From Acidobacteriota bacterium (GTDB lineage Bacteria > Acidobacteriota > Blastocatellia > UBA7656): DNA of 32,356 nucleotides. Within the stretch, counting starts at the first letter, position 1, and the number at the start of each line of letters is the position of its first letter. The notes under the pieces are model-generated. The model searched no databases, was not told the DNA's origin, and saw only the letters and a list, made by a program, of their open reading frames with translations. The position numbers and the translations under genes are program-made. Where the stretch lies: the NCBI GenBank assembly GCA_016201275.1, contig JACQDB010000073.1:1-32356 (forward strand), in the 5' to 3' direction. Shown piece by piece: positions 4,320-25,356 of this stretch.

Positions 4320-4504
4320 ACAATGTTCGGAAAGCCTGTAGATTACTCATGCCCGAAGTTCGCCAATTACCTGATCCCGCTTTCCGACTCTTGTAAAAGG
4401 CAGTGTACCACATTCTGTAAAGCCTTCTTGCGGTTTTCCGCGAACGGCAAATGGCGCTCTGGCCTGTTGCAGCAAGTCGGGAGTCAGTTTTTGTGGAGGG
4501 CTTC

Positions 4505-5113
4505 AGCTCGACTTTGTACAAGTTGAGGCTCACGATTTCCAGGGGGTGAAAGTAAAAAGCGGATTCACTCCGGGTGCTGCACCGCTGAAAAATTTAGCAA
4601 CGGAGAACCGAGGCGGTCGGGTCATTCGCTTGAATCCCCCCAACGGCAGTTGGGAGATGGTTAAAGCCCAACCTGCCAGAGCCGGCAAGCAAAGCTTTTT
4701 TGCAATCCCCCCAACTGCCGTTGGGGGATGCTTAAAGTCCAACCTATCCCGCACCACTAAACTTTTTTGCAATCCCCCCAACGGCAGTTGGGGGATGGTT
4801 AAAGTCCAACCTACACACCAAGCCAGCAAAACTTTTTTGCAATCCCCCCAACGGCAGTTGGGGGATGGTTAAAGTCCAACCTTGCCCGATGCTCAAGGCT
4901 GGACTTTAACCATCCCCCAACTGCCGTTGGGGGGATTCGTTGATCTTTGGCGGCGTTTCCTAGGTTGGACTTTAAGTATCCCCCAACTGCCGTTGGGGGG
5001 ATTCGTTGATTTTTGGTGGCGTTTCCTAGGTTGGACTTTAACTATCCCCGACTGCCATCGGGGGATTGGCAAGCTCGGTTCGCCTCTGAAAAATGTACCA
5101 AGTCGAGTTCAGG
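4505..5113. mobile_element. Composite palindromic repeat element A
   Basis: A non-coding element of about 610 bp. It is bounded by an inverted 13-bp box: TCGACTTTGTACA at 4508-4520 and TGTACCAAGTCGA at 5094-5106 (12 of 13 match). Inside, CTGAAAAATTTAGC near 4585 opens an array of seven hairpin units, and CCTCTGAAAAATGTACC closes it at about 5083-5099. The same parts occur in reverse order and on the opposite strand in element B (24408-25260), so A and B are inverted copies of one design. No transposase is encoded. It is plausibly a MITE-like or otherwise non-autonomous element, but no target-site duplication was identified. Bases 5114-5323 between it and the next gene hold nothing recognisable. 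Confidence 0.7.
4633..5067. repeat. Array of seven 42-bp hairpin repeats (4 forward, 3 reverse)
   Basis: Forward units lie at 4633-4674, 4704-4745, 4771-4812 and 4841-4882; reverse units at 4896-4937, 4962-5003 and 5028-5067. Each unit has a hairpin core of the type CCCCAAC-GGCA-GTTGGGG followed by a tail ATGGTTAAAGTCCAACCT. Units are spaced about 66-71 bp apart. The forward spacers resemble one another (ending CTTTTTTGC) and so do the reverse ones (CGTTGAT...GGCGTTTCCT). The two sets face each other around CTTGCCCGATGCTCAAGG (4882-4898), which is itself a partial dyad. Reading frames stay open through parts of the array because the period is often a multiple of three, but no RBS or protein family supports coding. 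Confidence 0.9.
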
Positions 5114-6184: not shown

Positions 6185-6274
6185 GCGGCGCTTTAACAGC
6201 GATATTCAGTTTAATAGGCGCGATTTTATTGGCTTTCACTTGCCTGCTCCGGGGTGATGAAAACCTCTGCGGCA

Positions 6275-6343
6275 CTCTGCAAAAACCTCTGCGTCCTCTG
6301 CGATAAAGAAAAAATCGCAGAGGACGCAGAGGTTTTTGCAGAG
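6275..6343. repeat. Perfect 30-bp-arm inverted repeat between convergent genes
   Basis: The arms 6275-6304 and 6314-6343 are exact reverse complements around a 9-nt A-rich loop. The sequence is built from CCTCTGCG-type words, and a further diverged copy of the left arm (AAAACCTCTGCGGCACTCTGC) precedes it at 6260-6280. It lies between the stop codons of a plus-strand and a minus-strand gene. It could form a cruciform or act as a two-way transcription terminator; the T run on each outer side is short. Confidence 0.85.
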
Positions 6344-6364
6344 GAGGTTAAACGTATTGCCGGT

Positions 6365-9218: not shown

Positions 9219-10124
9219 CTAGGATTTTCTCGCCACGATAAAGCTGGCGATGGCGGCCAGAATTTGCGTATCGCCGCCCAGCGAGGCGATGATGGCGATG
9301 GCTTCGTCAACCAGTTCGTGGGCTTTCTTTTTTGAGGCCTCAAGGCCGTGAATCGCCGGATAGGTGGCTTTCGAGGCCGCTTGATCTTTGCCAGCGGTTT
9401 TGCCCAATTGCTCGCTGGTCTGGGTCACGTCAAGAATGTCGTCGGCAATTTGAAAAGCCAGTCCAATGCGACGGCTGTAATCATCGAGCTTGCTCATCTG
9501 TTCGTCTGTGGCTTCGGCGATGAGGCCGCCGACGATAACCGCAGCGCGAATCATCGCGCCGGTCTTCGAGCGATGAATGTAGTCGAGCGTCGCCGCGTCA
9601 ACCGTCTGGCCTTCGCTCTCCATATCCACGACCTGTCCGCCGATGAGCGCTTCAACGGTTCCCGCCGCCTTGGCGATTTCGCCTATGACGCGAAGCTGTT
9701 TGAGCGCATCACGATGCGGCGCGTCCAGTGCCAACACCCGAAACGCCTGCGTGAGTAGCGCATCCCCGGCAAGTATCGCCATCGCTTCACCGAAGGCTTT
9801 GTGACAAGTTGGCCGACCGCGCCGCAAATCATCGTTGTCCATCGCCGGTAAATCGTCGTGTATGAGCGAGTAAGTGTGAATCATTTCCAGCGCGCAGGCG
9901 GCGGGCATTAAATCATCGGTAGCCGCGCCCAATGCTTCACCGCTGGCGAGAACCAAGACCGGGCGCAGGCGTTTGCCACCCGCAAACATCGAATAGCGCA
10001 TGGCCTTGTGAAGATTGACCGGCGGCGTGGATTCTTTGGGCAGCAAGCTATCCAGCCATTGATTGACCTCTTCGCTGCGGCGCGTGAAATATTGCGGTAA
10101 TGATTCGCTTGCTGGTGTTGTCAT
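9219..10124 (-). CDS. ispA: Farnesyl diphosphate synthase (IspA family)
   Basis: A 301-aa trans-isoprenyl diphosphate synthase that adds isopentenyl diphosphate to DMAPP and GPP to make FPP in the cytosol. The first aspartate-rich motif is in HDDLPAMDNDDLRRG and the second is DDILD. The residues just before the first motif (HTYSLIHDD) match the E. coli IspA pattern, so FPP is the most likely product; GGPP cannot be excluded. The ATG at 10124 gives MTTPASESLPQYF. A longer in-frame extension to 10193 would translate the flanking repeat and is rejected. The gene follows xseB and precedes dxs. The 118-base xseB-ispA gap is filled by an inserted palindromic repeat. Confidence 0.95.
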   Translation of the reverse strand: MTTPASESLPQYFTRRSEEVNQWLDSLLPKESTPPVNLHKAMRYSMFAGGKRLRPVLVLASGEALGAATDDLMPAACALEMIHTYSLIHDDLPAMDNDDLRRGRPTCHKAFGEAMAILAGDALLTQAFRVLALDAPHRDALKQLRVIGEIAKAAGTVEALIGGQVVDMESEGQTVDAATLDYIHRSKTGAMIRAAVIVGGLIAEATDEQMSKLDDYSRRIGLAFQIADDILDVTQTSEQLGKTAGKDQAASKATYPAIHGLEASKKKAHELVDEAIAIIASLGGDTQILAAIASFIVARKS

Positions 10125-10125
10125 A

Positions 10126-10230
10126 AATATTTTCGTTTGGCGTTCCGCCTTAATATTTTCGTTTGGCGTTCCGCCTTCAGGCGGCAGGCTCACGTTACGA
10201 AACCTGCCGCCTGAAGGCGGAACGCCAAAC
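10126..10230. repeat. Palindromic repeat with tandem half-copy in xseB-ispA gap
   Basis: A perfect inverted repeat has 28-bp arms at 10161-10188 and 10203-10230 around a 14-nt loop. Its outer part is also tandemly duplicated: a 26-bp word (AATATTTTCGTTTGGCGTTC...) occurs exactly at 10126-10151 and again at 10152-10177. The unit contains GGCGTTCCGCCTTCAGGCGG. It fills nearly all of the gap between xseB and ispA, right up to the ispA start codon, so ispA has no visible Shine-Dalgarno outside the repeat. It looks like a REP/MITE-type insertion. Confidence 0.88.
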
Positions 10231-11784: not shown

Positions 11785-14700
11785 ATGCAAAAGGTAAAAA
11801 TGCCCCGATGGTTATCCATGTGGAAAATCCTGGGTGCGGTGGGGCTGGCGTTTTGGCTGACGGATTCGATACCGCAAGTCAAAGAGCATAGCGTGTTTAT
11901 TTTTTTTGTACTGGCAGTGATTTATTGCGCCTGGGATATCGGGTTTGGGGGCGGCCTCTGTGCGGCTGTGTTGGGACTGCTGCTTTGCGATTATTTCTTT
12001 TATCCTCCGCTTCACTCTTTTGGCGCTACCGATTTCGAGCATTTGATGCCGGTTATCGGCTTTGTCATCGTCAGTGTTGTCGGCAGCGCCCTCGCTGCAA
12101 AAAGTCGCAAGGATGCCGCCAGACTGCTTCGCATCAATCGCTTTTATTCTCTGCTGGTCAACGCCCACACTGTCATTAAATCGGGTGACAATCTGCAACA
12201 GACTTGCGAAGGCATCTGCCGAGTGGCGGTCGAAAGCGGTTTATTTAAGATGGCCTGGGTGGGCTATGGGGAAGGCGAACAGGGATTGAACACGCCAGTG
12301 GCGTTCTGGGGGCTTGAGAATGAGTTGCAGGAAACCGAATTCAACGCTCGCAAAGAGATGCCGTGCAGCGGCTGCCCGGAAGGGGCTGCCGTGCGCGCCG
12401 GACATCATTATGTCTGCAATGAGATTGCCAAAAACGCGCAGGAGATTTGCTGGAGCGCAGTGGCGCAAAAACATGGCTATCACTCCTCGGCCACTTTTCC
12501 TTTGACCATCAAAATGCGGATTGCCGGAATCATCACATTTTATGCCGAACAAGAAAAAGCGTTTGGTCAGCAAGAGGTCGAACTGCTCACCACGCTTGCC
12601 GCCAATCTTGCCACGGCGATTGAGGCGCTGGAAAAAGAGGCGCGGCAGCGCGCCGCCGAAGCCGCTTTACAACAGAGTGAAGCCCAGTTGCAGGCGATTA
12701 TTGATAACGCTTCGTTGCAGATTTATGTGAAAGACCTGCAAGGCCGCCTGGTGTTGGTCAACCATTCAGTTGAAGAAGTGCTGGGATTGCCGCGCCAGGA
12801 AATTCTTGGCAAAACCAATCACGAATTATTTGCACAGGAGATTGCCGATCAATATCACGCCAATGATCGAATCGTTCTGCTTTCCGGCAAACCGCTGGCG
12901 GTCGAAGAGACCGTCGTCATGCCACAGGGCTTGCGTACCGGTTATTCGGTGAAATTTCCTTTAGTGAACGAGAGCGGCGAAATCTATGCCATTTGCGGAA
13001 TTTCCAGTGATATTACCGAAAGAAAGCAACAGGAGGAGGCATTGCGGCAACAGGCACAGATCATCAATCAAATACACAGTTCGATCATTACCCTTAATTT
13101 GGATGGTGTGGTGACCAGTTGGAATCACGGTGCGGAGCAACTTTATGGCTACACTATGGAGGAGGTTCTGGGCGAACCTATTGCTATGCTCTACCCCTCG
13201 CAAGAAGGTATTGAGGAAACCTTCCGAGTGATTCTGGCCGCGCTCCATCAAGAAGGAAAATACGAGATTGAGGCCGAGCGTATGACCAAGAGCGGGGACT
13301 CCATTTTTATTCGCTCGTTTCTGTCCTTTCTGCGCGATGCCGAAGGGTTGCCGGTTGGCATCATCGCCAACGCTTTTGATTTGACGCAGGAGCGCAAAGC
13401 TAGAGAAGAGTTCCGGCGCTTTGCCACCGTCGTCGAACAGATCGCTGAAAGCGTCGTCATCACCGACCCGGAAGGCAGGATTCAATACGTCAATCCGACG
13501 TTTGAAAAAATGACCGGATACAGCCGCGAGGAAGTGTTGGGCAAGACTCCCGGAGTAGTGAAAAGCGGTAAACAGGAGGCCGCCTTTTACGAACAGCTAT
13601 GGGCGACCATCAAAAGCGGCAAGGTGTGGAACCGACAACTGATCAATAAAAAGAAAGACGGGACGTTGTATCACGCGGAGTTGGTCATTTCGCCGATTCT
13701 CGACGCCAACGGCAAGCTGATCAATTTCGTCGGCACGCAGCAGGATGTGACCAAAGAGGCAGCGCTGGAATCGCAGTTGGTACAGTCGCAGAAGATGGAA
13801 GCCATAGGCCGCCTGGCTGGCGGTGTGGCGCACGACTTCAATAATCTGCTCACCGCCATCATCGGCTACAGCCAGTTGTCTATGGCCAGAGCCGGAGTGA
13901 ATGACCTGTTGCGAAGCAATCTCGAAGAGATCGAAAAAGCGGGTCGCCGCGCTGCCAACCTGACCAGTCAATTGCTGGCCTTCAGTCGCAAGCAAATTAT
14001 TCAACCGAGCAATCTGGTCATCAATGAAGTCATTACCAATCTACAGAAAATGCTGACGCGACTGATTGGCGAAGATATAGATTTACAGGCCAACCTGGAT
14101 TTGGATTTGGGCACCGTGCGCATGGATCGCACCCAAGTCGAGCAGGTGTTGATGAATCTGGCGGTCAACTCCCGCGATGCCATGCCCGAGGGCGGAAAAA
14201 TTATTATTGAGACCACCAATATTAGTTTGGACGCGGAATACGCCGCATATTTTCTCGACATTCAGCCCGGCGACTATGTGATGCTGGCCATCAGCGATAC
14301 CGGCATCGGCATGGATCAGGAAACCATCAGCCGAATTTTCGAGCCATTTTTTACCACTAAAGAACAAGGCAAAGGCACTGGCTTGGGGCTGTCCACGGTT
14401 TATGGCATCGTCAAACAAAACGGCGGCCACATCGAAGTGTTAAGTGCAATCGGGCAGGGAACCACCTTTAAGATTTATCTGCCGAGGCTTGCCGAAACTC
14501 AGGTCGAAACGCAAGTCGAGCGCGAAACGCTGATCATTCGCGGCGGCGGCGAAAAGATTCTTCTGGTCGAAGATGATTCTTTTGTGCGCGACCTGGCGGG
14601 CACGGCGCTGCGCGAATTTGGCTATGTGGTGACCGAATCGGCTTCCGGCGCGGAAGCCTTTCAACTGTTGAGCGCCGAAGAGCAGCCCTTTGATTTGTTG

Positions 14701-24147: not shown

Positions 24148-24494
24148 AAAAACTCCCGAAATTGCAGGCACACGATTCCGCTCGGCAAGACCTGATGACC
24201 GTGAGGAAAAACTTTTTTATGAGTCCGAGAAGGGGCGAATCGCTGCACATTGGCGAAATGTCAAAACCGCAGGGGCAGAAACCTTCGATAAACAATGCCG
24301 CGATGGTAAGATACCGAAGGCCGCTAGTCAATAGTTTTTCACTGTGAAGAAGCGCCGGTGCGCGGTGGTAAAGCGTTTCAAATACCTATCTCCTCAGCCC
24401 ATCGGGGCGATCTGTCTATAGCCTGTACAGGTAGATAATTTCGTAGCTCCTATGCTCAACTTTGTACATTTTTCAGAGGCGAACCAGCCTTGCT

Positions 24495-24790
24495 AATCCC
24501 CCCGACGGCAATCGGGGGATAGTTGAAATCCAACCTACGCAACGCCGCGAAAGATCAACGAATCCCCCGACGGCAGTCGGGGGATTCTTAAAGCCCAACC
24601 TACGAAACGCTGCCTACGATAAACGAATCCCCCCGATGGAAATCGGGGGATAGTTAAAGTCCAACCTTGCCCGAGGCTCAAGGCTGGACTTTAACCATCC
24701 CCCAACTGCCGTTGGGGGGATTGCAAAAAAACTTTGCTTGCTTGGTGTAGGTAGGACTTTAAGCATCCCCCGATTTCCATCGGGGGGATT
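24495..24790. repeat. Array of five 42-bp hairpin repeats (3 forward, 2 reverse)
   Basis: Forward units lie at 24495-24536, 24561-24601 and 24626-24667; reverse units at 24681-24722 and 24749-24790. They have the same tail as array A (TTAAAGTCCAACCT) and face each other around CTTGCCCGAGGCTCAAGG. Stems vary as pairs: CCCGAC/GTCGGG, CCCGAT/ATCGGG and CCCAAC/GTTGGG all occur, with loops GGCA or GGAA. The spacers match those of array A in reverse orientation. Confidence 0.88.
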
Positions 24791-24914
24791 CAGACGAATT
24801 GCCTCACGACCTCGGCTCTCCGTTGCTAAATTTTTCAGTGGCGAAGTAACCTGATTTCATAGGCTTTTTCAGCACTTAGAGCGGTTTTCCTATCTGTGTA
24901 CGGAACGCGCTATC

Positions 24915-24963
24915 GTTGAGCAGCGGTCTTCGACCGCACGAAGGTCTTCGACCGCCGCTCAAC
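24915..24963. repeat. Inverted repeat with internal 13-bp direct repeat
   Basis: GTTGAGCAGCGGTC (24915-24928) pairs with 24950-24963 (13 of 14). Inside, GGTCTTCGACCGC is repeated exactly at 24925-24937 and 24943-24955. It is part of the extra segment of element B, which is also bracketed by AGAGCGGTTT (24878-24887) and AAACCGCTCT (24993-25002). Confidence 0.75.
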
Positions 24964-25000
24964 GGGTTTGAGGTTTCCTTAATCTCAAACACAAACCGCT

Positions 25001-25148
25001 CTATATGCGCGGCACACCAAGATTCGGGAGATGAAACTTGGCGCACCGCATGAATGTTCATCGGGCCGCGGCGGTCTTACCAAATCTTGGTGTGCCGCGC
25101 ATATAGAATTATTGAACCTCAGATTGTTGAGGTGAGGTTCAATAATTC
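25001..25148. repeat. Two adjoining perfect inverted repeats
   Basis: The first pair has perfect 24-bp arms at 25001-25024 and 25083-25106, with a 58-base interior. The second pair shares the joining base: 16-bp perfect arms at 25106-25121 and 25133-25148 around GATTGTTGAGG. The loop can instead pair CCTCA (25117-25121) with TGAGG (25128-25132), giving two exclusive folds. Confidence 0.85.
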
Positions 25149-25356
25149 CAGGCGCGAACCGCAACGTCAGCGCTTGATTGGTGTGGTTCAATTTGAAATT
25201 GTACAAAGTCGAGCTATGGAGCTACGAAATTGGTTTGCACTTTTTTCTATAGACAGGTCGCGCCTATGGAGTTGCAACTGGCGAAAAATGTAGGCGCTCT
25301 GCTGTACAACTCCGGCGGCACAATTTAGAGTTCAACGGTGAGGTGAAGCAGTGGGT

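Follow-up and report, generated by a model that had tools for sequence, protein, structure and literature searches.

Hairpin-tail repeats of an Acidobacteriota genome as candidate REP-like sites of a tandem-Y1 enzyme, carried by an IS701-type miniature transposon

The window analysed here, the whole 32,356-bp stretch that forms contig C128 of a 6.84-Mb Acidobacteriota genome assembled in 162 contigs, carries two arrays of a short hairpin repeat followed by a conserved tail. What is such a repeat, which enzyme would recognize it, and what brought it to two places in one contig? The reading we prefer, to which we give a probability of roughly 75%, is that the units serve a new RAYT-like enzyme with tandem Y1 domains as REP/REPIN-like sites and that they were captured by a miniature transposon of IS701 type.

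Hairpin-tail units in the window

An earlier note, made from the letters alone, had described twelve units in two arrays, and these units exist, each about 42 bp long, with seven in array 1 (4632-5068) and five in array 2 (24494-24791); our model R1 scored all twelve:

4632..4674, + strand: unit 1, outer-stem mismatch; model R1, 63.8 bits
4703..4745, + strand: unit 2, inverted loop TGCC; model R1, 60.7 bits
4770..4812, + strand: unit 3; model R1, 70.1 bits
4840..4882, + strand: unit 4; model R1, 70.1 bits
4896..4938, - strand: unit 5; model R1, 69.7 bits
4962..5004, - strand: unit 6; model R1, 68.4 bits
5028..5068, - strand: unit 7, uncompensated GAT/GTC; model R1, 52.0 bits
24494..24536, + strand: unit 8, uncompensated GAC/ATC; model R1, 61.2 bits
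24560..24601, + strand: unit 9; model R1, 56.6 bits
24625..24667, + strand: unit 10; model R1, 66.2 bits
24681..24723, - strand: unit 11; model R1, 69.4 bits
24749..24791, - strand: unit 12; model R1, 61.8 bits
4841..4937, no strand: central inverted unit pair, REPIN-like, single long hairpin with a 9-nt loop; DNA fold

In its usual form, a unit has AAT and a single bulged base before the 8-bp stem, whose loop is 4 nt long; AT, two unpaired bases and the tail TTAAAGTCCAACCT come after it. The claim that stem bases change in pairs across the units holds for ten of the twelve inner stems (AAC/GTT in seven, GAC/GTC in one and GAT/ATC in two), but units 7 and 8 are uncompensated, and the tail, which had been called fixed, is exact in just six of the twelve units and is thus better described as conserved. 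Its recurrence across the genome is no accident, since exact tails number 78+80 against 1+0 for a reversed control; the stem end and tail together (up to two mismatches) gave 198+216 copies against 0 for the control. Forward units are followed by reverse units in 41 of the first 44 arrays of this genome, the three departures being one array of reverse units only and the two halves of a transposase locus described below. The central pair of array 1, the one pair that was folded, reached -54.6 kcal/mol (z -16.6), which none of 200 shuffles matched. A search of the window against Rfam at the gathering threshold returned 0 matches.

Miniature transposons around the arrays

Both window arrays are the cores of miniature transposons (MITEs); each has CTCGACTTTGTACA as its terminal repeats and is flanked by a perfect target duplication of 5 bp:

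4507..5107, - strand: miniature transposon 1, non-autonomous, IS701-type ends, 601 bp (TIR pair; family self-BLAST); TIR CTCGACTTTGTACA at 4507, second copy ending at 5107 with one mismatch
4502..4506, no strand: target-site duplication TTCAG, left
5108..5112, no strand: target-site duplication TTCAG, right
24455..25213, + strand: miniature transposon 2, same family, 759 bp, right arm with other short repeats nested in it (TIR pair)
24450..24454, no strand: target-site duplication CTATG, left
25214..25218, no strand: target-site duplication CTATG, right

Each of the two sits between divergent ORFs, and neither holds a transposase gene, while the TIRs and a target duplication of fixed length are present; transposon 1 has ORFs of 99 and 108 aa across the repeats, an overlapping ORF of 176 aa begins at 5013, and transposon 2 contains no ORF of 80 aa or more. 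Genome-wide, the family has some 90 copies or more. Its ends, each read inward, are CTCGACTTTGTACATTTTTCAGAGG on the left and CTCGACTTTGTACAATTTCA on the right, and beyond them self-BLAST coverage drops to few or no other copies; family coverage is also low in part of the right arm of transposon 2. Genome-wide, the two end patterns (up to two mismatches) had 97 and 81 matches against 0 for a reversed control, with a few sites matching both. Among 100 stretches sampled around repeat and end matches, which represent a subset of the copies, 52 TIR pairs were found, 51 of them with readable flanks and including a few mis-paired long ones; an exact 5-bp flank duplication accompanies 27 of the 51 elements compared to 3.2 after shuffling, with the consensus CTWAG, and duplications of other lengths were at or near chance. 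The same stretches hold 94 arrays, of which 49 have both MITE ends, 41 have one and four have none (ends with up to three mismatches); 26 of the one-ended arrays are close to a stretch edge, and two of the four without ends are the halves of the transposase locus. Reading the arrays as the interior of MITEs is, in our judgement, very highly probable.

Transposon 2 was inserted into the middle of a near-perfect palindrome (flanks 24437-24454 and 25214-25231, which when joined read AATTTCGTAGCTC - CTATG - GAGCTACGAAATT), perhaps another repeat or a terminator. Its right arm has other nested inverted repeats at 25003-25150 (GCGCGGCACACCAAGATT... and GAACCTCA...TGAGGTTC).

As to what moved these elements, contig C135 of the same genome has an IS701-family transposase within CTCGACTTTATCCA ends and with CTTAG on both sides, its open frame being 400 aa long compared to 446 aa in a relative from genome G123, to which it is 55% identical. 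That relative is surrounded by ends of the type CTCGACTTT(A/G)TCCATTTT, which also terminate the relatives' short elements; it scored 319.9 bits against NF049999 (cut-off 170), and the flanks of its element, CTAAG and CTTAG, agree in four of five letters. The MITE family thus resembles the IS701 family and its derived MITEs in its ends starting CTCGACTTT and in its 5-bp target duplication, and a DDE transposase of the NF049999 type is at hand; it departs from such derivatives in that two of 14 end positions are unlike those of the resident IS and that a hairpin array, not IS sequence, makes up its core. A DDE (IS701-type) transposase, not a Y1 enzyme, most likely placed the window arrays, and the similar ends and the duplication suggest that transposition of this type spread them. 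By eye, no long autonomous element bearing the MITE's own ends was seen among the genome-wide end matches. In this genome many MITE ends are no more than a few hundred bases from where a contig stops; the assembly thus breaks in these elements, and it may lack autonomous copies. In other genomes, MITEs with CTCGACTTT(A/G)TCC ends and without the hairpin array occur in G086 and G011 (L153 and L154; 173 and 177 bp), and further such end pairs of similar spacing in G086, G011 and G114.

A tandem-Y1 gene between inverted units

The note had also been reminded of the recognition sites of Y1 (TnpA-REP/RAYT) transposases and had proposed a search for such a gene. Our Y1 search of this genome yielded eight matches, two of which fall in a single frame at contig C80; this gene matches PF01797 twice in one frame, and we named the tandem-Y1 transposase dY1. 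It lies (L025:12021-12851) between a forward unit (11977-12019) and reverse units (12864 on), and MITE ends are absent there. A scan of named genomes gave four dY1 relatives at 46-52% identity, each with both domains in one frame and units around the gene, and the full set came to 16 dY1 loci:

L025 (this genome): R1 units on both sides
L169 (Pyrinomonadaceae MAG SH2), dY1 relative: R1 units on both sides
L170 (Blastocatellia MAG nzgw74), dY1 relative: R1 units on both sides
L171, L172 (Terriglobia MAG SRVP_39), dY1 relatives: R1 units on both sides
L203, L204, L219, L230: R1 units on both sides
L226 (gene only partly matched): units on one side
L223, L231 (more diverged): different stem sequence, hairpin and TTCA tail kept, on one side
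L232, L233: resemble the diverged L223/L231 type by eye
L205 (genome G022): other hairpins
L234: no unit seen in the stretch

In this set L215 (G005:C290), which shows the same unit and motif positions as L170, was treated with it as one record, as were L169 and G136:C421. Model R1 units are found on both sides of the gene, inverted and with their tails inward, at nine of the 16 loci, that of this genome included, which bears out the lead to Y1 enzymes; the enzyme so found, however, is not a canonical RAYT (below). The shuffled control for the diverged L223/L231 type was 0.0 per locus, and a unit also lies near a 17th match, the fragment L206 of G016. At eight of 13 loci (L025, L169, L170, L171, L172, L203, L226 and L231) the gene's stop codon falls within the first tail downstream or directly abuts it. 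In viral contigs, 18 pattern matches included zero dY1 relatives.

The distribution of units and gene points the same way. Among 162 genomes of the class, units were found in 19 (model R1, with up to 39 candidates scored per genome) and dY1 in nine (E-values of 1e-20 or less, one of the nine, G016, being a fragment of 67 positions); both occurred in seven, against 1.06 expected (P = 3e-6, uncorrected for kinship). Part of the material for models R1 and A1 came from five of these genomes; with the five removed, units were present in three of five dY1 genomes compared to 0.45 expected (P = 0.005). Twelve of the 19 unit-bearing genomes gave no dY1 match at 1e-20, and two of the nine dY1 genomes (G022 and G151) had no unit. 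Across the phylum (396 genomes), full-length dY1 was present in three, among the matches listed: this genome (G000), G004 and G022. We consider the association between unit and dY1 highly probable.

Covariation of the stem

The paired stem changes had been taken as a sign of selection for a folded molecule, and a covariation test had been proposed. For this we collected 670 tail matches from seven sources and dropped 294 (no register, many of them loose tails), leaving 376 rows, 251 of them distinct. Against an R-scape-like null of our own (60 simulations), the stem pairs ranked 1, 2 and 4 of 820 column pairs, with E-values of 0.067, 0.18 and 7.6, none below 0.05. In a test that counts events on a tree, double changes from one Watson-Crick pair to another numbered 10 compared to 1.8 when permuted (reached in 0 of 2000 permutations; slid controls 0-3), and, on a tree built from the non-stem columns, 95 compared to 22.7 (0 of 2000; slid controls 1-7). 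In a 60-row alignment picked for variety, with 57 rows from units in which at least six of the eight pairs are formed, there were 47 double-change cells versus 15.6 after shuffling (0 of 500; slid controls 0-7) and the covariation score was 0.226 versus 0.097 (0 of 500), but two of the five measures on this alignment do not exceed shuffles, namely covarying pairs (4 versus 2.8; 29 of 500 shuffles) and further pair types (9 versus 8.4; 218 of 500). The proposed test is hence passed by the tree events and falls short of significance in its R-scape-like form.

Do such paired changes reflect selection, or the way the hairpin mutates? Template switching in a replicating hairpin would copy one arm onto the other and at times invert the loop, and two observations fit it. 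Intermediates with G.T and with A.C were equally frequent as events (23 versus 25), so no strand is singled out and G.T is not in excess. In addition, 260 of the 356 tail matches in this genome are in register, and their loops are GGCA in 173, GGAA in 44 and GGTA in 19; all three are found as exact reverse complements (TGCC in 10, TTCC in 2 and TACC in 2; the other ten are singletons); to pass from GGAA to TTCC would otherwise need four substitutions. Template switching can therefore make paired changes; selection for the fold, as the earlier note had it, agrees with the event tests but shares them with this second possible source. What mutation alone leaves unexplained is the association with an enzyme gene; moreover, stem length and tail are kept while stems are wholly replaced across diverged dY1 loci (CCCCCAAC, CCACCCAC, CCCCAACC, CCATCGG and ACCGCTGGC/ACCACAGGC), and closer loci, in the 60-row alignment, keep the outer AT pairs and the tail. 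We put template switching as the origin of the paired changes at somewhat under even odds.

Split motifs of the dY1 enzyme

The two domains of dY1 have complementary motifs. In domain 1, HxH is found in 0 of 14 readable sequences and a tyrosine with Gln at +4 in 15 of 15, whereas domain 2 has HxH in 15 of 15 and its tyrosine is replaced by Phe or Trp in 13 of 14; the exception is the G022 protein (L205), which retains the tyrosine of domain 2 and is the only one with HUH and Tyr together. These counts are not all independent because some dY1 share a genome (L171/L172; L170/L219/L223/L226; L203/L204). Domain 1 of L170 aligns to IS608 TnpA (2a6m) across the HxH and Tyr regions (E-value 1.4e-4), and domain 2, when aligned with 2ec2 and 2xm3, has its Phe/Trp at the position of their tyrosine. 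As the motif losses are complementary (13 of 14 proteins), the only complete site would be that made of the domain 2 HxH and the domain 1 tyrosine, and we think it likely that the two domains form one composite active site in trans. An AlphaFold model from four sequences was poor (pLDDT 51.9), so this shared site is predicted from sequence. For L171/L172, the one pair with usable dS over both domains (whole-gene dS is saturated in three other pairs, and L170/L226 spans domain 2 only), dN/dS was 0.146/0.717 and 0.105/0.652, which suggests that both domains are under constraint. The dY1 of this genome scored 56.9 bits against NCBIfam REP_Tyr_transpos, below the cut-off of 80, and 146 bits against the IS200/IS605 model NF033573 (cut-off 55); judged by these profiles it is not a canonical RAYT.

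A survey of Y1 transposases, PMC6006769, is presumably that of Quentin et al. (2018). Its available sections state that IS200-type TnpA works as a dimer, with two His and Q131, about four residues past the Tyr, as metal ligands, and that the E. coli TnpA-REP appears monomeric (PMC6006769). A paper on active-site sharing is among its references, and according to the same sections its set excludes a small number of proteins that were longer than expected through fusions or annotation errors. We found no tandem-domain Y1 transposase with split motifs in the literature covered, which included the available parts of PMC6006769, PMC3733652 and PMC2817692; as most subscription journals lie outside this search, it is weak evidence of absence.

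Might dY1 be a decaying relic, and an ordinary single-domain Y1 protein the one that mobilises the units? This genome has six Y1 matches besides dY1, four of them with HxH and Tyr together in one domain (the two without HxH are at G000:C18 (L015), which has DYVH there, and at G000:C42 (L009)). The two exceptions make these proteins an imperfect control for the motif split of dY1. Yet no unit lies within 2 kb of those genes (stretches L026, L027, L028, L029 and L031) and both dY1 domains look constrained, and we regard a single-domain mobiliser as improbable.

Other carriers of the arrays

In genome G005 the arrays lie within elements that have GGTAGTGTCTTAA ends and are flanked by a duplication of 8 bp; in the four both-ended elements, 8, 8, 7 and 4 of the eight letters agree. 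These ends were set by eye, three bases beyond the automatic ones; an automatic duplication scan of the same carriers, with a threshold of three exact, gave nothing. In genomes G004, G027, G099, G110, G114 and G119, most of the few sampled arrays are without such ends (by eye), so the array also occurs outside the MITE; apparently two or more unrelated carriers have acquired it. A further end type beside arrays of G139, G006 and G004 (L236, L240 and L248; by eye), which in L236 reads AGAGACTGT...GAAAACTC and of which parts recur in the other two, hints at a third.

These carriers bear on whether the array has any transposase of its own, or is MITE filler, the units near dY1 being chance insertions. 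At least one MITE end accompanies 90 of the 94 arrays of this genome, and the G005 arrays too sit in a TIR element, both of which would suit filler. This reading is already disfavoured by the recurring tail-inward layout, and it is at odds with the arrays that lack such ends in the six genomes above and with a dY1 gene placed between inverted units, its stop codon in the tail, across different genera; we consider it very unlikely. Slightly less likely again is that the unit acts as RNA (a terminator, a processing hairpin or a small RNA) and its stem is kept on that account, which the stable fold and the paired changes would allow, but the window is without an Rfam match, and inverted units with inward tails around a Y1 gene are in keeping with a DNA site. 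We dismissed integron, CRISPR and terminator readings on the strength of the Y1 and TIR results alone.

Comparison with known systems

Among known systems, the units are closest in form to REP/REPIN sequences and their RAYT (the REPtron): they are short palindromes in high copy, they occur as inverted pairs that form one hairpin, and in opposite orientation they flank a Y1 transposase gene. The defining abundance, a short palindrome in more than 100 copies, is exceeded here (198+216, up to two mismatches). Unlike REPs, they have no GT(A/G)G or CGTC tag, the foot being AAT plus a bulged base (60-row alignment), and a conserved TT(C/A)A...CCT tail lies 3' of the hairpin. Similarly, dY1 is like RAYT (TnpA-REP) in being flanked by inverted REP copies, at nine of 16 loci, and unlike it in falling under the NCBIfam REP_Tyr_transpos cut-off and in having HUH and Tyr split over two domains. 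With the IS200/IS605 family (IS608 TnpA), dY1 shares the Y1 fold matched by NF033573 and a Tyr with Gln at +4; unlike those enzymes, it consists of two domains in one chain with one predicted site and with HUH and Tyr apart (except for domain 2 of L205), and what we find here in high copy are solo units, not whole elements. We take the arrangement of a hairpin followed by a short conserved tetranucleotide to resemble the IS608 right end. Pairing between a tetranucleotide and a guide is described in PMC6006769.

A last comparison is with the class 3 TnpA-Y1, which the same portion of the survey places in Acidobacteria, with atypical flanking hairpins and about 600 copies in Solibacter usitatus, and describes as having a single domain (HMM length 178), a CnGA foot and Y----Q spacing (PMC6006769). 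The acidobacterial host, the atypical flanking hairpins and the high copy number are shared with dY1; the two domains, the AAT foot and the Gln at +4 of the Tyr are not.

Proposed explanation

Based on the above, we propose that each unit of about 42 bp, with its two outer A-T pairs, bulged base, 8-bp stem, small loop, two nucleotides and tail TT(C/A)A...CCT, is a putative REP-like recognition site in single-stranded DNA, and that dY1, encoded between inverted units, is its predicted enzyme. The two dY1 domains would amount to a built-in dimer with one working site, to which domain 2 would contribute the metal-binding HxH and domain 1 the catalytic tyrosine and the third ligand. By analogy with IS200/IS605, dY1 may bind the folded hairpin in single-stranded DNA and cut near TT(C/A)A. 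The core array would be two units tail to tail, as in a REPIN, with more units added on each side, probably by dY1, which may once have spread the units. In this genome such an array became the interior of the IS701-type MITE, with its CTCGACTTTGTACA ends and CTWAG-like 5-bp duplications, and the MITE, driven by a DDE system, would afterwards have spread ready-made arrays, both window copies included. Of this, the sequences themselves show the MITEs with their duplications, an IS701 element whose ends are similar, the dY1 loci with their flanking units and the complementary loss of motifs. We think there is a somewhat better than even chance that these loci define a new group of REP-associated transposases, with a fused Y1 'dimer', one composite site, REPs of their own made of a hairpin and a TT(C/A)A tail, and REPIN arrays carried as cargo, in different genomes, by two or more TIR transposons that are unrelated to each other.

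Such an enzyme, having lost one of the two possible active sites in evolution, would help to tell apart the steps for which one site is enough and the steps that require two, and it would demonstrate that a single-chain heterodimer is a workable form of Y1 enzyme. Its complementary loss of HxH and Tyr also offers a natural experiment on how IS608 shares its active sites. The capture of such arrays by other transposons illustrates how transposition systems with no relation to a hairpin repeat can carry it along; the spread of REP sequences is still called poorly understood in the available text of PMC8266576.

Other repeats in the window

Two further repeats lie apart from the arrays. Between two genes, at 6260-6350, there is an inverted and tandem repeat of the AAAACCTCTGCG/CGCAGAGG type, and at 10126-10177 a 26-bp tandem repeat, two exact copies of AATATTTTCGTTTGGCGTTCCGCCTT, overlaps the start of the ORF at 9219-10193.
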